A DNA stretch of 24,500 bases, taken from Chromera velia (taxonomy: Eukaryota; Sar; Chromeraceae). Position numbers and translations under genes: made by a program. Positions within the stretch are counted from its first letter, which is position 1. The number at the start of each line of letters is the position of its first letter. Location of the stretch: assembly GCA_018398765.1 (NCBI GenBank), contig JAHBMJ010001915.1, positions 1 to 24,500 on the forward strand. Direction: 5' to 3'. Under the pieces are notes generated by a model. The model ran no database searches. It was not told the DNA's origin and saw only the letters and a list, made by a program, of their open reading frames with translations. Shown piece by piece: positions 3,530 to 21,906 of this stretch.

Positions 3530-6500
3530 TCAGGCACCTCCCGCAAGAGCTTCCTGCATCACGCAGGCGAAACCAGAGTAAGGCATTGTGCCGGCTGAGC
3601 GAGGAGAAGGAACGCAGATATGCCACCACGGTGATTTAACGAGGACACAAAGGGAAAAAGGAAAAGCCGGAACGACTAGAAACACACCAGCCAGCCAGCA
3701 AGCAAGCAAGCAAGCATGCAAACAGGCGAGGAAGCAAGCAGGCTAGATTCAGAGAGAGGCTCAAAGAAATAAACAACAGCGGGAGAGAAAACGACTGAGA
3801 GGGAGAAACTTTAAGACATACACCAAAAATGAGCCGAGCGTGCTGGGAGGGTGGAGGGATGGGCGAGGACGGGGGACCCAATCCAGCCCCACCTTCCTTC
3901 ATTCACTCGTCGGATCATACACAGAGAAAGAAGTCAAACGAAGCCTCGATCCTCCACTCACCTTCATCACTTTCACGCGTCTGAAAACGAGGGCGGCCTC
4001 CTTCTTTCGTTGCGCTTTCAGCAACAGACGTGCAAGCTGCAGCAAGAAAGAAGAAAAGAAAGAGAGAAAGAGAGAAAGAAATAAAGATCCAAAGAGGGAG
4101 AGAGAGACACACCCACAGGAGGAGGTGATCCATCAGCCCTGTACTAAACAAAGGACACGAATATCCTCGCTCGATCAGACTCATGAGACTGTCAGACTGA
4201 ACTCACGTACAGTAACGCTCTTTCGCAATGGAGGACCTACTTCGAGTCTCTCTTTTTTTTCCTTTTGGACGCATGAAAGACGCGACAATAAAGTCATGAC
4301 TCTTTTACCCAAATGAAGCAGACAAAACCGGGAGAACAGAGAGCTCACGGGACATGGCGTGGAGGGAAACCTTCAGACAGAAATGAGGAGATATCGGAGA
4401 GAGAGACAAAGATACATATCTCACTTTCTCCCCCTATCTGTCTGACAGACCTGCGTGTCTCTCTCCACCGCAGCATTACATCTCTGAACGTAATCCTCCA
4501 TGGAAATCTTCCCGCCCTGCAGCGTCAGTAGCAAGCAAGAACACAACTATCCATCCGTCAACACAGAAAGAACATCCAAGTCTCCTTCGCGAAGGGGCAG
4601 ACCAGTGGACGAAAAAGAAAAACCAGACCAGCACAGAAAGAAACACATGCAGTCAAAGCAAGCACCTCATTACTCTCATCTGCTGATCGAACCAGACACC
4701 AACCACCATTTGAAACAGAGGTGAGGTGCAGAGAGAGAAGACCCCACGCGGCCTTCTCTCTGCAGGTTTGGAGTTGTATGTCACTCTGAAACTGCCTGCC
4801 TGCCTGCCTGCCTGCGTGACGGACCCCAATTGCCTCTGCGATGCCTTCCATCTTCATCTGTGCCTGTCCGAGGAGTTTGTCCTGGATCGACTGTGGAAGC
4901 TCTGCCAGTCGTTTGTTCGCAATTAAGTCCTCCAGAACCTGAGTGAGTGAGAGGGAAGGAAAGGAACGCGTGTCAAGGCGGATATGCACTTCCTCTCAAA
5001 TGCTTTTCAATTCGTCGAGAAGGTAAAAGAAAGGAGGGAAGCCACAAGGAGGGGCGACGGGAAGAATCCCGTGAAGCCAAAACAAAAGCGCACAATCCAG
5101 TCGACGGAAGGAACTCGACATGAAAGTTCGAACCATACTGATCAGTTATTAACTGTTTGAATGAAATCATGCTTAAATTGCGCGTTGCTTGCCTAGCTCC
5201 CTGTACTTCGTTCTGCTTTCCTTCTATGAACCGACCGACTGACCTCATAAGAACAGATCAGGCCGATGTCAAGCGGGCATGCCATGGCCTCCTCTGCTCC
5301 AATGACACCCGATACGCCCCCCTCAGCAGCACCTGCGGCTTCCCCGTCTCCTTCCGTACGAGGGGAAGCCGCGGGGGGCGAGGAGGACGCTGCAGCCGCA
5401 GCTGCGGGCTGTTCTTTTTCTTCTTTCGGAGGGTCGGTGGTTCTCGGTCGGATGCCTCGGAGGGTGGCAGGCAAGGGTTCGACAAGCGCAACACAGGGGA
5501 TAGGGACTGCCTTCATCTCCTTTCCCACGATCGGCCTCTTGAGAAGCATCGTGATCTTCAACCTCGGCTGCTCCCGTGCAAAGTCCTGAACAGTCACTGC
5601 TCCGCTGTGCTCCATCAGTTCTTCCAGTTTCACATTTCGGGAGACTCTCCCAAGACTCTTGTAACCTCTAATCAGAGCGAAAGTTCGAGGCTTGAAGACC
5701 TCCAGCTGTACTCTGGATCGTTGGAAGTATCTCTGGAGCTGTCGACTTTCATAAGAAGAGAGGGGGAAATCCACAAAAGCTTCGTCTCCTGCGGAAGGGG
5801 GAAGTTGGACGGACTTGGACACAGGGGTGGGGAACTGGAGAGTGACCTCGACATACGACCCTTTCGGAAGGCTCACACCTCCCTCCTCGCTGCTTGGGCG
5901 AGACGCCCCCGCACCGCCTGCGCAACACGCCATAGAAGCGTGGACAGGCGAACTTCCTGCCTTGCTGAGTCTGTCTCTCTCTGCAGCCACCAGCCTTGCG
6001 AGGTCGGGTTCCAGGGGGAGGACCTCTGAGGGTTCATCGTTCGTCAGTTGGAGCACAAAACGGATGGTAGCCTCAGGTACCTCTTCGTTCGTCACCTCCA
6101 TGGTTCGAATCAGGGACACCTCCTTCACTTCGGGAGGCAGCTGCGTGCGTCAATCAGTCACGTCACAGTCAGAGGCAGAAAGAAATGGGCGGCTGAAGTA
6201 CAAAATTCAGATGGAACTGTTCGACACAATGAATAACAGAGAGGCCCGGCACAGCGTTTCTGATTGCTGTGCTGAAGTGCTGCATCTTTAGCGATGAGTG
6301 CGAGGAAGAAGGAAGGTTGCGGAATGCGTCTGTGGGATGAAGGAGGCAGGAATGGACGCTTTTCTCTTTTTTCACAGACAGAAGAAAGGCTGGGAAGGGA
6401 AACAGTCACGCTATACGAAGGGAAAGAGCTAGTCCGCCCTCATTCAAACTGTTCTCTCACCTGGAGTGAATCCTTCTTGGCTTTCTCAGTGAATTTCGCC

Positions 6501-7121
6501 CACTCCTCGCACCGCTTCCTCCAGCTGTTCAAAACGACAGCCTGCAGGCAGGAAGACAGCTTGAAGAAGAGATCTGTGATTGTTTTGTCCACAAACGTTC
6601 ACCTCTCAGTCTTTGGAGCGGCAAAGAAGAGCGTTTCAAACAAGCACTTTGGTGCAACAGAGGGACCGAAATCAAACGATCGAACGACACGGAAGAAGGG
6701 AAGACCAACGGAGGAGGAAGCAAAGCGGAATTGAACGTCACGTCATGAACGGAGTACACGCAAAAGATCGACAGGCAGCTAGCCATTACTCGTGACGGAC
6801 CTCTTCTTTGAATTTTCCGGATGCATCCAGATTGAGTGCGTAGAGAGCGTGTGCCTTCAGAGTCTCTGCCTGCTGCTGGAGGCTTGCCTCTATTTCCTGC
6901 ATCATGGAATGGGGAGGGAGGGAGAGGGGGAAAGGGGAAAGGTCACACAGTGCCATGAACATGGAAGCTCGAAAACTCTCTCTTGAACAGGAGGGAAAGG
7001 ACTCAACTCTCTCTTCTCTAGTCCGAGAGAGGTCCTAAGCACCTTGTTTACAGGAATGAACAATGTTCCTCTTCCTTTCGCTCGGCGGCAATCCCCCCCC
7101 ACCCGTATTCAAACACACACA

Positions 7122-11079: not shown

Positions 11080-11305
11080 TACCTCCTCTCCCTCCCATTC
11101 ATTCCCCACACCTCATCCCACTCTCTTGACTCAACTGCATTCCTTCCATCCATCCAACTCCTTGGGCTACCTACCATCTATTCTACTCACTTTACTTCGC
11201 TGTATTCTGTCGGTCCTTTCATCGATCCATCCATTCATCTATCCATCCATCCATTCCTCAATCCATCCATCCATCCATCCATCTATCCATCCATCCATCT
11301 GTCGG
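11080..11305. repeat. Pyrimidine-rich tract ending in TCCA microsatellite, left flank of E1
   Basis: CT-rich sequence resembles the array at 17837-18730; GTCAACTGCATTC occurs in both. It turns into a (TCCA)n run at about 11224-11300 that directly borders the first retroelement-like unit. Confidence 0.7.
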
Positions 11306-11525
11306 GTAGCGTACAGGGCTCATAAGATTAAAGTTCTGTCATACAAAGTCACTACTGCAATCTCTTGGGTTCAAGCTAAACAACAGATGACTTGCTATTG
11401 ACTGCATGCGAGCACCATTAATTCTGCATGCATGCTGTATGGTGCGCTCGACGCCGCGCCCACCGTAGACGCAGTCCTGACACGAATGCTTGTTATAGTC
11501 ACACTCTAACCTCCACAATGCTACG
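11306..11525 (-). repeat. E1 3' terminal direct repeat (LTR-like)
   Basis: 220 bp, matched over its full length without gaps by 14492-14711, with nine differences that are all transitions. It is bordered inside by a polypurine tract and outside by a few unrelated bases and then TCCA microsatellite. Confidence 0.85.
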
Positions 11526-11540
11526 TGCCCCCTCCCTCCA
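11526..11540 (-). other. Polypurine-tract candidate of E1
   Basis: On the minus strand this reads TGGAGGGAGGGGGCA, directly before the 3' terminal repeat. This is where plus-strand priming occurs in LTR elements. The same 15 bases lie at the equivalent place in E2 (14989-15003). A second, internal copy of the tract is at about 12259-12274. Confidence 0.55.
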
Positions 11541-12666
11541 GAGTGGCGTCCCTGCCACTTAAATTACATGGGGCAGTCATGCCATACACACTGTCAGTGC
11601 TAAGCAGAACAGAGTTAAAGGATCGCGTTGGCTATTGATTAAGCTCACAACCGTTAACTCAAGGCGGGGTCTCTTCTGTTACATGAAGGGCAAAGTTGAA
11701 AATTGCTCACAGGCTAGCTCACAGGACTCAAACCTGTAGTTCAGCAGTGCAGGAGATATGCGGATTGTATAATTGGTTTGTCCACAACCAACCCAGTCAC
11801 CTTTGCCTAACTTCAACTCTCGTCCTCTCTCCTCTCCGATCGATCTGAGTGTCAGCCTTCTTCTCGTAATCACACTGCGCTGACAGCAAAGAATTGTCTG
11901 TCTTTCTCTTTTCTTTGTTCCTTTCCTGTTGAAGCACTTCTACCGTTGGCATTTGTGCAAAAGGGCATCGAGGTCAGTCTTTTTTCTCGAAGACAAAGAT
12001 CGTGAATTCGATTATCGATGCGAATGATTGTTCTGACAGCCAGCCCAGCATGAAACACACACATGGTTGACACAACCATCCAAATTCTCTCATCGCTCCT
12101 TTGTCGTCTCGCCTTTCTTTGCAGTTTGTTTCTTTTCATTACTACGATAGCTTCTCGTCTTGATTCCCTTTCATCTTTCTTTCCATCCACACCTTTCTCT
12201 CTCCTCTTGCCACATGCTTCTTCTCTCTCTGAGAACCACTCACACCCATATGAACCCACGTGCCCCCTCCCTCCTGACCACGTCCCCGCGGTCTAAGCAC
12301 GCAAAAGACTTAGTGCCAAGACACGTATGACGGGTAAAAAAACTCTGGACAAACAACGTAAGATCAGGTGCCGACAGAATCTGACAGATACCCTGACAGA
12401 TTGATCACCAAACGATCAAACGGATGAAGGAAACAGAAATGAACTGCAAGCCAAACACGAGTGTGAGGTCTCCCTTTCCATTAATACTCTTTCAACAGAA
12501 ACTGATAGCTCGATCAAAGAAGACAATAGGTAATGTTCCTTACACTGGTAAGAGCAGGCAAAGAAAACGAACCAGATACGTCACAACGAGGCGAAGTAAA
12601 ATGTAGATGGACAAACCAAAGCAAACGAGCACACGACAAAGCCAGGGCTCAAACGATCATGAAGCT

Positions 12667-14140
12667 TTAATTCTCCATTTCTGCAGGCTTCACTGGCACT
12701 GGGAGGTCTTGAATCATTTCCGGAATACCCGCTCGTGCCAGTTGACCAACCTCTTTCCAATACTCCCTCTTCTTCTCTTTGTAGAGCAGTACTGCTTCGC
12801 TGTCTCCCTTCTGAGGCAGCAGCGTGAACACCTGCCGGGAAGAATGCGTTGGCATCATCTTATGCTTTCGTCCGAGACTCTTGGCCTCGAGTTTCTCTGC
12901 ACGAGCCTTCTCTTTCTCCTGTTTCATTTTTTGTTTCTTTGTTGGCTTGGGCCTAAGTTCCCGCCTTTTGCCTCCATCACCTTTGACTACCACCGATTCT
13001 TTCACTTTCTGTTCTTTCACTTCCTTCCATTCATGGTCTCCGCCCACCTCTTGTGACTGAATGTCAATGGAGTTGACCGGCAACTCGGCAGGCTTCGACA
13101 TTCCACCTTTCTTCTCCACTCTTTCTCCTACCCTAATTTCTTTCACAACGTTCCTCTCTTCCTCACTTCCTTGCACCATCTCCGGCCCGGGGCAACAGAG
13201 ATTGTCATCGTCGAACTGCACTTGACTTAGGATGGATTCAGTTGACAACATCCCACTCCTCTCTCTTCCCACTGCGTCGCTGTCTCATTGCGTAGAGAGA
13301 CAGGCTAACGATGCAGGACGTGATGTTTCACTTTCGATCGTGCGATCCTCTCCCACTTGCACCTGTTCGGGACTGAAGTTGGCAGGCGTATTGCGGAGCT
13401 ACTCAGTGACACCCATCCCCTCGGCGACTCTTCTTACTGCTCTCCACTCCGCACCCCTCTTTTTTTCCCTTTGTGCTTCTTTTCTCCTTCTCCTCCCTTC
13501 GAGGACTGCTGTTCTCTCTGGGTCTTCCCCACCTCGAGGAGCGACATGCTGATCGGATTGCCGAACAGAGCGGAACTGGAATAGGTCCACTCTCGGCATG
13601 ACTTGGTTGCCAAAACTCCTCGTCTCCTCGCGCAGCCACCCTGGGTGCTCAAACAAAATCCCCGACCAAATACGCTCCTGTCTGATCGAATGGAGCTCGG
13701 CCTGATATCTCTTCTCACTCTTTGTTTCCCTTTTCCTTCTCCTCTTCTCCCTCATCCTCTCTGCTTTTCCTTTTCTCTTCAGCTGGATATGGACCCTCTG
13801 CTGCTGTTATTGTAATTTGTCCATCCCCTCCGGCCAAAGCCATCATCGGGGAACCGGAACTTAAGTCAAACGACGTCCTTGGCTCCACTTCTGGAAATGC
13901 ACCCGTAGGCAAACCTGCAGGCAGAACAGGCTGCAACTCTTTCTCTTCTCTTCCTCTCTCCTCAAAAACTTCTTCAGAACTGTCATCGAGCTGAGCAGCG
14001 GCGGGATGCTGCAACCATTGCTTTACGGAGAATCGGGGGGCTCTTCTTGCTTTTCTTTTCTTTTTCTCCTTCGCTTCTGCCTCTTGTGGCTCTCTCTCTC
14101 TCTCTCTTCTCAGGCTTCTCTCCCTCTATGCAAGGCATCG
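12667..14140 (-). pseudogene. E1 ORF2 relic: Lys/Arg-rich orphan protein
   Basis: Reading frames on the minus strand resemble E2 ORF2 but do not form one open frame. An acidic segment (down to 13715, frame of DDSSEEVFEE) overlaps the start of a basic segment in another frame (13755 down to 13399). That frame then continues to 12667 after TAG (13399) and TGA (about 13286). Shared words with E2 include RKRETKSEKRYQAELHSIRQ against RKRERKKEAKHQAQLYTIRQ. An intron at 13412-13272 (GT to CAG, phase 1) would remove both stops, so splicing is possible. Otherwise the gene is decayed. No known domain was recognised. Confidence 0.45.
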
Positions 14141-14153
14141 CAGCAGAGAGCAG

Positions 14154-14315
14154 TCAGGGTCTCAACTCTTCTGCAAGCTCTGAGAGACCCACATCAACAG
14201 CGTCACCCTTCTCCTTGACCGCACCGACCGAGACGTTGCAAAGTTTATCGGCAATGTCGATCACAGAGGCAACTGCCACCAATCTTTCAGCCCCTTTCCC
14301 TTTCTGTCCTACCAT
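14154..14315 (-). CDS. E1 ORF1: small orphan protein, 53 residues
   Basis: ATG at 14315-14313 and TGA at 14154. It aligns with the 57-residue ORF1 of E2: NVSVGAVKEKG with LSELAEEL here, against HISFLKVHKNG with GKKLAEKL there. Both have a similar length and sit first after the 5' repeat, which supports real coding in the ancestor. The pattern of a strand, then G, then an LAE-L helix faintly recalls Alba-type nucleic-acid-binding folds. That is speculation only. Confidence 0.4.
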   Translation of the reverse strand: MVGQKGKGAERLVAVASVIDIADKLCNVSVGAVKEKGDAVDVGLSELAEELRP

Positions 14316-14468
14316 TTTTCTTAAGTATAAAAACTTCCAAGGCTCACAATCTATGCATACAAAAGAATTCTCTTTGGTGCAGAAGATAAGCTGACAACTG
14401 TTGTTCGATCGATACAGAGAGTCGTCTCGTATCAAGATTCAATAGAAGAGCAGCAGTCTGTGGTCGAA

Positions 14469-14485
14469 CTCTGCTCTGCTAACCA
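14469..14485 (-). other. Primer-binding-site-like sequence of E1
   Basis: TGGTTAGCAGAGCAGAG begins six bases inside the 5' terminal repeat. The complement of the 3' end of many eukaryotic initiator-Met tRNAs is TGGTAGCAGAG, so this matches with one inserted T. Confidence 0.5.
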
Positions 14486-14491
14486 CGTCAA

Positions 14492-14711
14492 GTAGTGTAC
14501 GGGGCTTATAAGATTAAAGTTCTGTCATACAAAGTCACTACTGTAATCTCTTGGGTTCAAGCTAAACAACAGATGACTTGCTATTGACTGCATGCGAGCA
14601 CCATTAATTCTGCATGCATGCTGTATGGTGCGCTCGATGCCGCGCCCACCGTAGACGCAGTCCTGATACAAATGCTTGTCATAGTCACACTCTAGCCTCC
14701 ACAATGCTACG
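14492..14711 (-). repeat. E1 5' terminal direct repeat (LTR-like)
   Basis: Partner of 11306-11525. It would contain the element's promoter. On the minus strand a CTTATAAGCCCC word lies about 20 bases before its inner end. Confidence 0.85.
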
Positions 14712-14740
14712 CCATCCATCTATCTATCTATCTATCCATC
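14712..14740. repeat. TCCA/TCTA microsatellite between E1 and E2
   Basis: Only about 29 bases of tetranucleotide repeat separate the two elements. The same motif borders E1 on its left and E2 on its right. Confidence 0.9.
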
Positions 14741-14988
14741 GTAGAGATGTGGGCCCTCAGCTAGTCGTATCTGGGATCAGCTCTTACATATGGATAAAGG
14801 TTCTGTCATGCATGAGTAGTTCTGCTATCTCTATTCTATGAGACAAACAACCGATGTCTTCATTAAGACTGCATGCTGCATATTAATTCCTGGCCATGCA
14901 GCATACATGCATGCGCCCTACGCACGTTATGCACGCGTACTTCATTTTATCCTGACACAACTGCTTGTTAGACCTTCACAACGCTATG
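14741..14988 (-). repeat. E2 3' terminal direct repeat (LTR-like)
   Basis: Partner of 17476-17724. Differences are mostly transitions plus a few small indels. It abuts microsatellite on the outside and a polypurine tract on the inside. Confidence 0.85.
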
Positions 14989-15003
14989 TGCCCCCTCCCT
15001 CCA
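14989..15003 (-). other. Polypurine-tract candidate of E2
   Basis: On the minus strand this reads TGGAGGGAGGGGGCA, identical to the E1 tract and in the same place relative to the 3' repeat. A related internal tract lies at about 15488-15501. Confidence 0.55.
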
Positions 15004-16197
15004 GAGTAACGTCCCGCCACTTCATCAGCATGAGGCAATTTGATCTCAAAAAGGCGTGGTCTATACAGAACGGTCTCGAATTTATGCAAATCACCTCAAG
15101 TCATTTTTTCTCTCTTCCAGCCTTTGCTGCTGATTAGGCATATGACGACTGATTCCAAAGCAGGCTCTCTTTTTTCACATGAAAAGCGGAATGAAGAATC
15201 GTTCACAGGATTTGAACTTGGAAAGCAGCAGCACATAAGATAAACTGTTTCTCTGATTGGCTAATTTGTAGCCAATGCAGTCATCTCTACCTACTTCAAC
15301 TCTTGTTCTCTCTCTTTTCCAATCGATCTGAATGTTTGCCTTATTTCAGCCATCATACTGCGCAAATAGAGTCTTCCCTTTCTGGCCGTCACTCACTGTC
15401 AACTCTTCTTCTCTTTCTCTCTATGTTTTCTCTCCTTATTGCGTGTCATCTGCTCTTCTGTCTCCTCCCTTCCTCTCACCCAGACCATGCCCCCTTCCTC
15501 CAACGCCGTGCCCCACGGCTGAGCAAAGGCACACAACGATTGAAACGATCACAAAAAAAAAAAATTCCTACCGAGCGCAGACAGACATTCCCTTATCAAA
15601 CCAAACGACAACCACTGCAAGAATTCGATTCCCCAGGATAGACAAACAGGCCAAGATGACTGTTCAAACGAAAAGAACGAATGCAAATAGACGAGATCGG
15701 ACAGTCATGCAACAAGACTGAACAAAGACACACGCCGTCTCCATGCCTGCATGATCACTTACTACGTTACACCCCCATCAATTGTCTCTTCCCTGCACGA
15801 TGCCTTCTGCTTACTCTCCTGCTCAGTAAATAGGTATTCCTATCGCATATCGTGCCCAAGATTCTTGGAAAAGTGCCTAGACAGACGGAGGCAATTCTTC
15901 TACTCTGTACCCCTCATGCTGTGTGTTCGGTGTGTGCTCTTGATCGGATTGATGGATGCTGCTGATTCTCCTTGGCGGGGCAACGCTTCTCAGCGGAGGC
16001 GTGGAACTCCCAAGCCCCCTTGTTTCTCGCACACCTTCCATTTCGACATATCCACGGAGGCGAATGGAGCCAAATCTACGAGGAGCGGTCTCCGAAGCTG
16101 GCAAAGGTTCTCTAAGGCGAGGCACTGACTGATTGCCAAAACCCCTCGCCTCTGTCTACTCCTGTCGAATTGTTTTGATTTTAGCCCTCCGCGTCTC

Positions 16198-17106
16198 TTA
16201 TTTCTTCCACTCTTTTCGCGTTTCCTTCTTCTCTTTACGGCCTTGAAGGATAGCCGCTCTTCCTATTACGTCCTGCACTGTAGATCCCCTACGCAAACCT
16301 GTACGCACATAAATGCTCTCCCCCTGCATCTGCACAGCTACCTTCTGAGGGGAACCACCGAGGGTCGTCTGGTGATCCCCTGTTCGAGTTTGTCTGATTG
16401 TATACAACTGTGCTTGGTGTTTAGCTTCTTTCTTTCTCTCCCTCTTCCTCTGCTGCTTAGCGGTCCTCCTTTCGGCTCTTTCTGGTTTCTTTTGCGTTTG
16501 CAAAGTGGAGTGCAGAACACCAAGCAACATAAGAACTACCTCTTCGTTCTGTGAATATCCCCCGGCTGGAGCAATCACAGGGGGAAAATCAGAAGGACCC
16601 ACAGACTGCATCTCCAGCTGCATCTCTCCACTTGCGGGATGGTGCATATTCACGTCCTCCTGGTCTGTCGCCGGTCGACCAGTGTATAAAAACGGGTCTT
16701 CTGTCTCTGTTACTTCTCCTTTGCTATTCCCTGATGCTCCTACGAATGTTCTTGGGGGCAGAGCACGCAGACCACTCACTTCTGTCTCAACATACTCTTC
16801 CTGACTGGGTGGGGCATCAGGAACAGACGCCACAGGCCTCCACCCACTTCCTCTGCACGGGCTCTTCTCTTTCTTTCCATCTGCCTGCGATGATGGCAAC
16901 ACGGACAAACGATCTGCACTTTTGTTTTTCTTCCCCGAAGATGTTATCAACTTTGGTGCATTCTCTTCATTCGTCTTGCTTGATTGCTTGCGGGCCCAGG
17001 CTCTTCCTCTCATCTTTTTACTTCTGCGAGTCTTATTCTTCGTGACACCCTCTGTATTGGTGGAGGGCGGTGTTGTTGAAACGGAAAAGTTGGGCTTCTG
17101 CCGGGA
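16198..17106 (-). CDS. E2 ORF2: Lys/Arg-rich orphan protein
   Basis: The frame continues from ORF1 past a TAG at 17107-17109. The first ATG is at 17013, giving 271 residues to a TAA at 16198. It is rich in Lys, Arg, Glu and Gln, with a mid-section of Pro/Gly/Thr and a basic C-terminal half (QRKRERKKEAK, then LYTIRQ, then GRKEKKETRKEWKK). After the TAA the same frame continues to 15877 through one TAG (16156-16158), with resemblance to E1 (ARGFGNQSVPR against TRSFGNQVMPR). The original protein may therefore have been longer. No domain was recognised. It could act as a nucleic-acid-binding structural protein, but this is inference from charge only. Confidence 0.4.
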   Translation of the reverse strand, partial: SRQKPNFSVSTTPPSTNTEGVTKNKTRRSKKMRGRAWARKQSSKTNEENAPKLITSSGKKNKSADRLSVLPSSQADGKKEKSPCRGSGWRPVASVPDAPPSQEEYVETEVSGLRALPPRTFVGASGNSKGEVTETEDPFLYTGRPATDQEDVNMHHPASGEMQLEMQSVGPSDFPPVIAPAGGYSQNEEVVLMLLGVLHSTLQTQKKPERAERRTAKQQRKRERKKEAKHQAQLYTIRQTRTGDHQTTLGGSPQKVAVQMQGESIYVRTGLRRGSTVQDVIGRAAILQGRKEKKETRKEWKK

Positions 17107-17280
17107 CTACAGAGTCTCTAAGTTGCCCCCTGCAGCAACAAAGAGCTTCTCTGCAAGCTTTTTTCCTTCGTTGAGAAGGGATCGACCGTTCTTGTGCACT
17201 TTGAGAAAAGAGATATGCTTAAATTTCTCGAGTCTCTCGACAGCAAGAACAAACTCCCCGAAGCGATCAGGCACCGACAT
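17107..17280 (-). CDS. E2 ORF1: small orphan protein, 57 residues
   Basis: ATG at 17280-17278 has an in-frame TAA just upstream, and the ORF ends at TAG 17109-17107. It aligns with E1 ORF1 at the C-terminal half. Because E1 ORF1 also ends at a stop at nearly the same place, the TAG is probably a true ORF1 stop rather than a random lesion. Readthrough into ORF2, which is in the same frame, is possible. Confidence 0.4.
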   Translation of the reverse strand: MSVPDRFGEFVLAVERLEKFKHISFLKVHKNGRSLLNEGKKLAEKLFVAAGGNLETL

Positions 17281-17460
17281 CGAAATAAACTTTTAAGGGA
17301 AAAGAAAGACGTGGTTCTTTACTGATTACGGACTTCAAGATGTGGCTGTATGCAGGCGACAAAAGTTAATCCGTAACTTTGCACTCGCACAGCAGAAGAT
17401 GGACTGTTCATATGTTTAATCGATGAAACGAGAGCACGCAAACCCACTGAGGCCAGTTCA

Positions 17461-17474
17461 GGCTCTCGCTACCA
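17461..17474 (-). other. Primer-binding-site-like sequence of E2
   Basis: TGGTAGCGAGAGCC starts one base inside the 5' repeat. It matches the initiator-Met tRNA complement TGGTAGCAGAG with one inserted G. Confidence 0.5.
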
Positions 17475-17475
17475 C

Positions 17476-17724
17476 GTAGAGATATGGGCCCTCAGCTAGT
17501 CGTAGCTAGGATCAGCTCCTACATATGGATAAAGGTTCTGTCATACATGAGTAGTTCTGCTATCTCTATTTTATAAGATAAACAACCGATGTCTTCATTG
17601 AGACTGCATGCTGTACAATTAATTCCCGGCCATGCAGCATACATGCATACGCCCTACGCACGTTATATGCACATACTTCATTTTATCCTGACACAACTGC
17701 TTGTTAAACCTTCACAACACTACG
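17476..17724 (-). repeat. E2 5' terminal direct repeat (LTR-like)
   Basis: Partner of 14741-14988. The outer end runs straight into TCCA microsatellite. Confidence 0.85.
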
Positions 17725-17836
17725 TCCATCCATCCATCTATCCATCCATCCATCCATCCATCTATTTATCCATCCATCCATCCATCCATCTATCCATCCA
17801 TCCATCCATCCATCTATCTATCCATCCATCTATCTC
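17725..17836. repeat. TCCA/TCTA microsatellite, right flank of E2
   Basis: About 110 bases of tetranucleotide repeat. The same repeat class is found at the left of E1 and between the elements. Confidence 0.95.
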
Positions 17837-20240: not shown

Positions 20241-21906
20241 GGTCTCCGGGAGGACAGTCAGGCGATATTTGATCGTGCGCGGCTATAAACGTCCACGTCC
20301 CTCCATTCCCTTGGATTATGCTTCTCTTCAGTAAGTTTGCAAACTGGGTGGGATGAGAAATAAAATTTAAGTTTTGGAGGAGCTGCCGGATCTCCGCATT
20401 CCTTTTGAGAAAAAAAAAAGGAGAAAGATCGCAGAAACTTGATGTGTGCATCAGATTGTCCGAATTGACTTTTAGCGGGTGCAGTAAAAAACTAAGTGCC
20501 TTCTCTATCCTTGGACACAATTCATCTTTAAGGTCCCTCCCAATGGTTTCGAGACGGTTGTCTTGGATCCAAAATCTCGTGCCTCCGGCAGTGCATCGTG
20601 TGATCCGCTAGAATTCCCAGGGATCAACGTGTGTGTCTCTGTTGTTGATGGATTTCCACGTATAAGATTGCATTAAGGTTGGAATGTACGCAATGTTTGG
20701 GTGTCGAACTCCGTACGCATTAGAAAAAACACCTCCATTTAGGGTCAAGAGGTCTTTGAGTAGAAAAAGTGCTAAAGGCAGCCCGTTGTCGTGGTCCAGA
20801 GCATTCAATAAGTGCTTTACGTCGAAGTCAACTGGCTTAACGGCAGTGTAGCTCGGCATCTTGCTCCGCAGCGCGTTTATGACTGCCTCTTTCTCCGTCA
20901 GGTCAAGTTTGGACATAGAAGTATGCCAGTCTGGCTGCTCATCTTCAGATGTCTGATACAGCAGACGATATACGCCTCCCCTGTTAGTGAGATAGGATAA
21001 CTTCCGCTGCAGTAATGAGTCGCTTTCTTGTGACACGTACTCACACAGCATCTCTTCTTTTGTCTGCTGCAGGTGCTCGATGGGAGACGGCATCACTGTG
21101 GCATTGTCCGTGATAACCGGTAAGCCGAGCTCCTCTGTCCAAGTCCCAATTAGGCCTCTTACACTCTTGCGGGGCCGTGTCGGAATGAATTCGATTTTTT
21201 TTTTGCGATGGGCTGGCGGTACGGCCAAAACTGGATCAGACTTCCAGCTGCTCTCCGTTTTTATTTCAGTTTCTTCTTGGAATGCCGATGACACTAGGCT
21301 TCTTGGTATCGTGTCTCCTATTTGTTCGATAAGGGAAGACTGTCTGAAATGAAGTGCCGCCATCGGATCATCTAGACCTCTGCTTGCAGTATCGTTGGCA
21401 ATGCTAAGAAAAGGCAATTCATTGAGGCCCTCAACCACTTCTGCTGCTGCTGTCATGTCTTTTTTGCAAACTTCATGGCCCCTTCCTTCTTGACTCAAGC
21501 GTGAAGTTCCTTCAGTCTGATGAACAGGCCGGCCCGCTTTAAAAGAACAGACTGCTTGTTCTATCGTATCGACGTGGTGATGTCTTTCGGATCTCTTATC
21601 TGCTTTTCCTTCAGGTAGCACTTCAGGCTGCTCCGTTGCCGCCACCGCCAAAGAAGGCCCTCTTTTTGGAAGGCCCGAGTTGTCGTCGGCCGGCATGTTG
21701 TGATCGTCTTCCCTGCTGGACGGTAAAAGGTCTGGTACTGCTTCGTTATCTTCTCTTTCTATGCTGAAAGAAATTCCCCGTGAAACGATGTCCTCCTCAA
21801 CGGCTCTGGACGATGTTTGCAGAAAGGCATTCGAGTCGTTATCGGTGTCCGTCTGAATTTCTGCGTCTTTTGTGCATGGTTTTTCGGTTTGCGTTCCTGC
21901 CTCCAT
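20218..21906 (-). CDS. Orphan protein of ~560 residues, one in-frame TAG
   Basis: ATG at 21906-21904, open to TAG at 20610-20608 (432 residues). The same frame then runs on to TAA at 20218, with 129 more protein-like residues (FWIQDNRLETIGRDL, then LLQNLNFISHPTQF). The N-terminal 200 residues are acidic and low-complexity, with TQTE and IQTD words. A basic patch KKKIEFIPTRPRK lies near residue 236. The remainder is a globular-looking Leu-rich region (HLLNALDHDNGLPLALFLL). No domain was recognised. Either the gene is newly inactivated by TAG, TAG is read through, or a short intron spans it. The 21-base GT-to-TAG stretch just before it is in phase but improbably short. Confidence 0.5.

Follow-up and report, generated by a model that had tools for sequence, protein, structure and literature searches.

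TR-GAG elements are gag-only, non-autonomous long terminal repeat (LTR) elements of plants; terminal-repeat retrotransposons in miniature (TRIMs) are small and non-coding, and large retrotransposon derivatives (LARDs) are large and non-coding. Among other systems, RLG_Quinta and RLG_Cereba are a gag-only element and its partner (PMC11302176), non-autonomous pararetroviruses show concerted evolution of shared non-coding sequences (PMC5491270), and Retand elements, some of them non-autonomous, carry extra open reading frames (ORFs) of no known role that run antisense between pol and the 3' LTR (PMC11963269). The Chromera velia genome paper reports its elements as totals (PMC4501334). Here we describe two elements, A and B, in a 24,500-nucleotide stretch of C. 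velia DNA (contig JAHBMJ010001915.1; the whole stretch is called the window below), which we read, with a probability of about 0.85, as non-autonomous LTR retrotransposons of this species that are moved by a helper and share a chassis by template switching.

Like TR-GAG and the RLG_Quinta/RLG_Cereba pair, A and B have the LTRs, primer-like site and polypurine tract (PPT) of a working element, one gene and no pol, and would be mobilised by a partner. They differ in that their host is a photosynthetic alveolate and their gene has no recognised gag domain; a TR-GAG element has a single ORF with such a domain, whereas the three intact A and B proteins gave no Pfam match at an expect value (E) of up to 1. 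TRIMs and LARDs have LTRs, a primer site and a PPT but no pol, and A and B resemble them with their LTRs, primer-like site and PPT. However, TRIMs are very short without coding capacity and LARDs have a large non-coding interior, whereas most A and B copies are 2.9-3.5 kb long, with genes for 414-555 amino acids (aa) that are conserved between families. Of gag, protease, reverse transcriptase and integrase, which mark an autonomous element, none was found in the A and B proteins and ORFs compared with Pfam, and none of the listed gag, reverse transcriptase and integrase places lay in the A and B copies. The pararetroviruses likewise combine differing coding parts with non-coding control parts homogenised by recombination; A and B are instead LTR retrotransposons, and the proposed unit of exchange has as its limits the junction of the LTR and the primer-binding site (PBS) and the neighbourhood of a second, upstream PPT (PPT2). 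Sireviruses, too, have multiple PPTs ahead of the 3' LTR; their upstream PPTs lack an inverted repeat, whereas both A and B PPTs have a covarying hairpin just upstream. Retand shares with A and B an additional protein without known role and the presence of non-autonomous members, but the A and B gene is sense and alone, whereas the extra Retand ORFs are antisense.

Anatomy of elements A and B and their copies

The window (contig C1911 in our searches of the 177.8-Mb, 4040-contig C. velia genome) contains two adjoining minus-strand LTR retroelement copies, A at 11300-14711 (3412 bp) and B at 14740-17724 (2985 bp). Both have an LTR pair and a 5-bp target duplication of their own, a tRNA-primer-like site, a PPT and a single broken gene; the order on the minus strand is LTR, primer-like site, gene, PPT and LTR. 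An earlier note, made from the letters of the window, had proposed two direct-repeat pairs in two adjoining units with repeat, primer-like site, ORFs, PPT and repeat in this order, and both the pairs and the order were seen. Its repeat sizes of 220/220 bp (~96% identity) and 248/249 bp (~92%) were revised once the boundaries had been fixed by comparison with other copies: the A LTRs are 226/226 bp and 94.7% identical, and the B LTRs are 250/249 bp and 91.6% identical. The outer end at 17724 stood, and the one at 11306 was moved to 11300, so that the 3' LTR of A, beginning with CGTAG, spans 11300-11525 rather than 11306-11525. The 5' LTR of A lies at 14486-14711, and the 3' and 5' LTRs of B lie at 14740-14988 and 17475-17724, the latter reading CGTAG...CTACG. 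As the note had stated, the repeats pair within their own unit; the LTRs of A and B are only roughly 55-70% alike (100-base bins, measured on other copies). The LTR ends are mostly (C/T)GTAG...CTACG in B, with ...CCGACG in A, rather than TG...CA; known elements with other LTR ends than TG/CA exist. Some other copies have LTRs that are more similar (98%) to the 3' LTR of the window A copy than its partner is (94.7-96%), because each copy has acquired its own later changes.

Each element is flanked by its own exact duplication within a CATC/GATG microsatellite, GATGG for A (11295-11299, matching 14712-14716) and ATGGA for B (14735-14739, matching 17725-17729), as read on the minus strand. The 28 bp of CATC/TATC microsatellite between the insertions (14712-14739) hold one duplication of each. 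Several copies lie in microsatellites (CATC, CATT, TG, AATC), as seen at 11220-11299, 14712-14739 and 17725-17834 of the window and in the flanks of three further loci (L055, L062, L063). In both window elements TGG(T)TAGC... directly follows the 5' LTR, and GGAGGGAGGGGGCA directly precedes the 3' LTR. The primer-binding-like site is TGGTTAGCAGAGC in A (14473-14485) and TGGTAGCGAGAGC in B (17462-17474), and the terminal PPT lies at 11526-11539 in A and at 14989-15002 in B. The genes, with limits read from the sequence, occupy 12667-14315 in A, where three stops and two frame-shifting indels interrupt it relative to the intact 555-aa copy L037, and 15823-17280 in B, a type B1 gene with four stops relative to the intact 484-aa copy L062. 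The several small ORFs per unit of the earlier note therefore turned out to be fragments of one broken gene per element, and one that is not small in intact copies.

A search with the A LTR gave 58 candidates; all 40 that were scored matched, spread over 24 contigs with that of the window among them. With the B LTR there were 98 candidates, and again all 40 scored ones matched. We excised 40 loci, 20 for A (every A contig except C2475, C3887, C950 and that of the window) and 20 chosen for B. The 32 loci with both LTRs (15 A, 17 B) and the two window copies gave a set of 34 copies (16 A, 18 B); eight loci in which a single LTR was complete (L046-L050, L061, L068, L070) were excluded, and the inner ends of the 5' LTR were poorly set for L045 (A), L052 and L064 (both B). 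An exact 5-bp target duplication was present in 24 of the 34 copies (10/16 A, 14/18 B), and in 28 when one mismatch was allowed, as opposed to 0 and 24 of 1122 cross-paired controls. A PPT directly preceded the 3' LTR in every copy, and TGG abutted the 5' LTR in 30 (14/16 A, 16/18 B). Further copies with the same plan of repeat, primer site, gene, PPT and repeat, set beforehand as a check, were thus found, and this architecture in 32 other genomic copies indicates that that of A and B is not due to chance.

The search for solo repeats that the note had proposed yielded three apparent solo LTRs among the five A loci left out. The target duplication was exact in L050, exact in L047, where an assembly gap is close by, and preserved at 4 of 5 bases in L046. 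One copy, L057, has two identical 246-bp LTRs and is therefore recent. Copies of A and B are neighbours once more at C3755:22775-28731 (partly L031), where they lie ~0.3 kb apart in opposite orientation.

Hairpin-PPT units and the chassis of B1 and B2

A hairpin with a stem of about five or more pairs and a GGGAC-like loop lies just upstream of both the terminal PPT and PPT2. In the window A copy these are the terminal hairpin AGTGGC-AGGGAC-GCCACT (11540-11559) and an upstream hairpin with its stem around a GGGGAC loop (12275-12294), the latter preceding PPT2 (12261-12274); in B the terminal hairpin is at 15003-15022, the upstream hairpin at 15502-15521 and PPT2 at 15488-15501. PPT2 was detected by a strict pattern in 26 of 34 copies; it stands ahead of the 3' LTR by 0.73-0.77 kb in A and by 0.51-0.53 kb in B. 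Across 60 hairpins, 289 of 300 pair cells were paired and 50 hairpins had all five pairs, in a register picked by eye as the second one tried (the first was 39% paired); sliding it by 1-3 bases left 20-67% paired. In four of the five pairs both sides of the stem had changed, in one of these four pairs in just 2 cells, and this covariation comprises few independent changes since the copies counted are related and belong to four classes. Even A and B have the hairpin-PPT units in common, and the PPT-LTR pattern gave 80 matches genome-wide, as against 7 for a reversed control.

By their first 700 internal bases, the B copies fall into two types, eight B1 and ten B2, with 92.5% identity within types and 58.4% (at most 60.9%) between them. 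The LTRs are 92.2% identical within types and 92.0% between B1 and B2, and the 480 bases before the 3' LTR are 92.5% and 91.6% identical, respectively. At the LTR/PBS junction, identity between types drops from 91% to 66% (in 16 copies, without L052 and L064); it climbs from 40 through 66 to 92% from 90 to 60 nt before PPT2 (14 copies, without L056, L057, L064 and L069, in which the strict PPT2 pattern failed). The 5' break thus coincides with the LTR/PBS junction, and the 3' break lies 60-75 nt upstream of PPT2.

We then mapped the B1/B2 label on maximum-likelihood trees, using 500 label shuffles and 200 bootstrap trees. Five label changes were needed on the LTR tree and four on the tree of the 3' region, compared with about six for shuffled labels, and 102-119 of the 500 shuffles were as low as the observed value on the LTR tree. 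In neither tree did B1 and B2 form separate groups in any of the bootstrap replicates (0% of 200), and well-supported branches force at least two label changes. The positions of the breaks suggest template switching during a shared reverse transcription: a single switch close to PPT2, after which the 3' LTR serves in the usual way to rebuild the 5' LTR, would leave this pattern in the copies. As we infer, it fits copying by LTR-type reverse transcription and fits simple constraint poorly.

The gene, its decay and the search for gag and pol

Intact genes, open from the ATG as found in the genome, encode P0001 (A, 555 aa, L037), P0002 (B1, 484 aa, L062) and P0003 (B2, 414 aa, L067). The B1 and B2 proteins aligned by BLASTP with an E of 5e-52 (38% identity over the alignment), and the A protein aligned with that of B1 at 2e-9 over 143 aa and with that of B2 at 6e-6 over 107 aa. 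Between the B1 and B2 genes, the proportion of synonymous differences (pS) was 0.71, with synonymous sites near saturation, and that of nonsynonymous differences (pN) was 0.36, at 44% amino acid identity. Since pN is about half of pS at near-saturated synonymous sites, the protein was constrained while the families diverged. The proteins are basic, with isoelectric points (pI) of 9.6-10.4, and neither CCHC nor D(S/T)G motifs were present in the A, B1 or B2 proteins when looked for. Structure models were mostly unordered with long helices, at a mean predicted local distance difference test (pLDDT) score of 46 and 53.

A profile search of 5.8 billion proteins (7995 candidates scored) returned 11 proteins at E up to 0.01, ten from C. 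velia and one from JGI contigs, and a single-sequence search with the A gene returned three similar proteins, all from C. velia CCMP2878; neither protein search gave a named relative outside Chromera. One of these three, Cvel_24806, contains the B fragment 16198-17013 followed by the A fragment 13715-14014, so this public gene model fuses both insertions. The element genes are stored in public protein sets as 'uncharacterized proteins'. A further Chromera record, P0015, is named 'Retrotransposon gag domain-containing protein' and joins 193 aa of the B2 gene (82% identity) to a Ty3-like gag; the join may reflect a nested insertion, a joined gene model or a real fusion, and we take it as probably a joined model like Cvel_24806 rather than a true Gag fusion.

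Distant relatives of the A gene were found at 15 places (from 37 rows) with 35-55% identity. On the same strand, eight of these had a primer-site match upstream and 11 a PPT match downstream, most at repeated spacing, and part of one lies in L054, with a similar hairpin-PPT. For B, 28 places (from 57 rows, close copies included) contained 15 with a same-strand primer-site match upstream within 9 kb; both primer-site counts use 100 of 111 matches listed. The relatives of the ORFs that the note had suggested seeking therefore sit, in diverged families, inside the same frame, and we consider the wider non-autonomous LTR superfamily formed by A, B and these relatives to be real.

Differences between the LTRs of a pair, counted in 31 copies (without L045, L052 and L064), comprised 295 transitions and 22 transversions (317 in all). 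Those of C/T type occurred in all contexts and on both strands, at 11.7% for CG, 8.2% for CHH and 5.1% for CHG. This excess, counted in repeats alone, looks like methylation-driven decay or decay resembling repeat-induced point mutation in Chromera. Outside the poorly aligned A copy L045, most stops in the genes are CAG, CAA, CGA or TGG codons altered by C-to-T or G-to-A, and such decay explains many of the broken genes and renders the within-family ratio of nonsynonymous to synonymous substitutions (dN/dS) uninformative. The ratio was 0.61 for A, 0.65 for B1 and 0.43 for B2 (29 of 34 copies, omitting five with long internal regions), and a simulation of pure C-to-T decay gave 0.56, 0.59 and 0.54, respectively. 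Stop codons that copies share were not counted as proof that elements had spread while their gene was broken, since C-to-T changes can arise repeatedly at one site. Of the indels, 19 of 29 in the gene and 19 of 52 outside it (28 copies) had lengths divisible by three, a weak difference.

The genome is rich in RVT_1, RVT_2, integrase (rve) and Retrotrans_gag. We listed 150 places for each (of 1759, 514, 635 and 438, respectively), and among these 600 matches listed none lay inside any of the 34 copies; five were on contigs that hold copies (RVT_1 and rve on C1216, RVT_2 on C3607, rve on C504 and gag on C2406). Together with the absence of Pfam matches for P0001-P0003, this agrees with the note, which had recognised no gag or pol family. 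Ten further ORFs from the four copies with longer interiors (L035, L039, L041, L060) had no Pfam match at 0.01, and these interiors were rejected as autonomous partners; that of L042 was rejected because it contains 5000 N. Long ORFs in L042, L044, L047 and L061 were likewise discarded as evidence of pol, the loci containing long runs of N. Near the A copy in L049 (sense, 4500-6665), a 722-aa open frame resembles, by eye, a reverse transcriptase of the long interspersed nuclear element type (FADDTTLL). Elsewhere in the window, a 432-aa open frame at 20608-21906 had no Pfam match, and searches of the window for host genes gave no match.

Proposed helper, rival explanations and biological meaning

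The primer-site pattern had 111 matches genome-wide, as against 21 for a reversed control. Among the 100 of these listed, three were followed on the same strand by an RVT_1 that starts 2.1-2.2 kb downstream (C764, C1474, C2224), and two, likewise on the same strand, by a Retrotrans_gag that starts 0.08 and 0.43 kb downstream (C2292, C229). By chance about 0.13 would be expected for RVT_1 within 3 kb and about 0.04 for gag within 1 kb, in windows picked after seeing the data. No RVT_2 was within 12 kb of the 100 listed sites, among the RVT_2 places listed. Genome-wide, gag and reverse transcriptase lie about 1.8-2.9 kb apart (13 pairs, among the reverse transcriptase matches listed). Our best guess for the helper, from these sequence patterns, is a Ty3/gypsy element whose LTR end and primer site would be similar. 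A candidate for the primer is tRNA-Met. Pattern searches located two Met-tRNA genes with GGGCTCATAACCC, and the 3' end of the one at L072, with CCA added, has the reverse complement TGG-G-TGCAGAG-CCTGG, which by hand agrees at 13 of the first 15 bases with TGGTAGCAGAGCCTGA in the B1 copy L062.

In the cycle that we propose, the element would be transcribed and its RNA would enter the particles of an autonomous LTR element, most likely of Ty3/gypsy type. A tRNA at TGG(T)TAGCAGAGC and the polypurine tract would prime reverse transcription, and the integrase of the helper would insert the copy, duplicating 5 bp of the target. A common chassis would be made up of the LTR, the two hairpin-PPT units and the 3' region, and families with different versions of one basic, coiled-coil-rich protein would swap it by template switching during copying. 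The protein probably binds its own nucleic acid or that of the helper; that it aids packaging or copying is a tentative idea. Equally tentatively, the gene could encode a retroelement protein of a novel type that has no relation to Gag or Pol, with several such genes carried on one interchangeable chassis that template switching continually re-homogenises.

A different origin would make A and B ordinary deletion derivatives, similar to TR-GAG or RLG_Quinta, in which the gene is a decayed or fast-evolving gag of a Ty3/gypsy element that lost pol. The gene does come first after the primer site, its protein is basic and has long helices in the (poor) models, and gag-only partners are known (PMC11302176). 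Against it stand the failure of three intact proteins to match Pfam even at E up to 1, when Retrotrans_gag was matched at 150 of 150 scored places (438 candidates) in the same genome, the lack of a CCHC knuckle, and the absence of a capsid-like fold in models that are poor and were not compared with solved folds; we regard this origin as unlikely, if still worth weighing. Constraint imposed by one helper, rather than exchange, could also keep the LTR and 3' region of B1 and B2 alike, as signals read by shared proteins are constrained, the hairpin-PPT units persist even between A and B, and the 3'-region tree shows some clustering of the B1/B2 label. It is an improbable account, since the whole LTR is as similar between as within types despite near-saturated synonymous sites in the gene, the types are never separate groups in the bootstrap trees, and well-supported branches demand repeated label changes. 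That the repeats are independent units, like short interspersed nuclear elements (SINEs) or miniature inverted-repeat transposable elements (MITEs), flanking genes by chance would agree with the existence of single LTR copies; in the set of copies, however, the duplications join the outer ends of a pair, with primer site and PPT on its inner sides, which leaves this explanation with hardly any probability. We rejected SINE-like repeats, as the plan is kept in 34 copies. None of the outcomes named beforehand as contrary to a non-autonomous LTR family was seen in the 34 copies, and the primer-site and PPT arrangement recurred elsewhere.

Several observations weigh against our reading of A and B as helper-dependent elements that exchange a chassis. 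The 3'-region tree retains some clustering of B1 and B2, with 28-35 of 500 shuffles as low as observed, and shortly after PPT2 the identity between types dips to 59% (79% within types) before returning above 90%. No element combining a reverse transcriptase with these LTRs was seen, the LTRs of the candidates not having been read. The link to Ty3/gypsy depends on listed subsets, with about 21 of the 111 primer-site matches expected from the reversed control, and on a shared primer site, which elements of unrelated kinds may use as well. The two Met-tRNA genes located fit the primer site imperfectly, and no exact match was found. The protein has no confident structure model, and within-family dN/dS below 1 was rejected as evidence of selection because the C-to-T simulation gives similar values. 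Finally, L057 carries two stops in its gene despite its identical LTRs, so the gene may not be needed in cis.

If the tentative reading of the gene as a novel type of retroelement protein is true, a community of polymerase-less elements would share one replication vehicle in C. velia, and the protein would let an RNA without polymerase enter the replication of another element. The paired hairpin-PPT is a testable RNA signal. Element genes held as 'uncharacterized proteins' can inflate gene counts and lists of orphan genes in this photosynthetic alga, a relative of the Apicomplexa, which include the malaria parasites. Polymerase-less LTR elements may persist with their replication signals kept current by exchange while their gene diverges under constraint.

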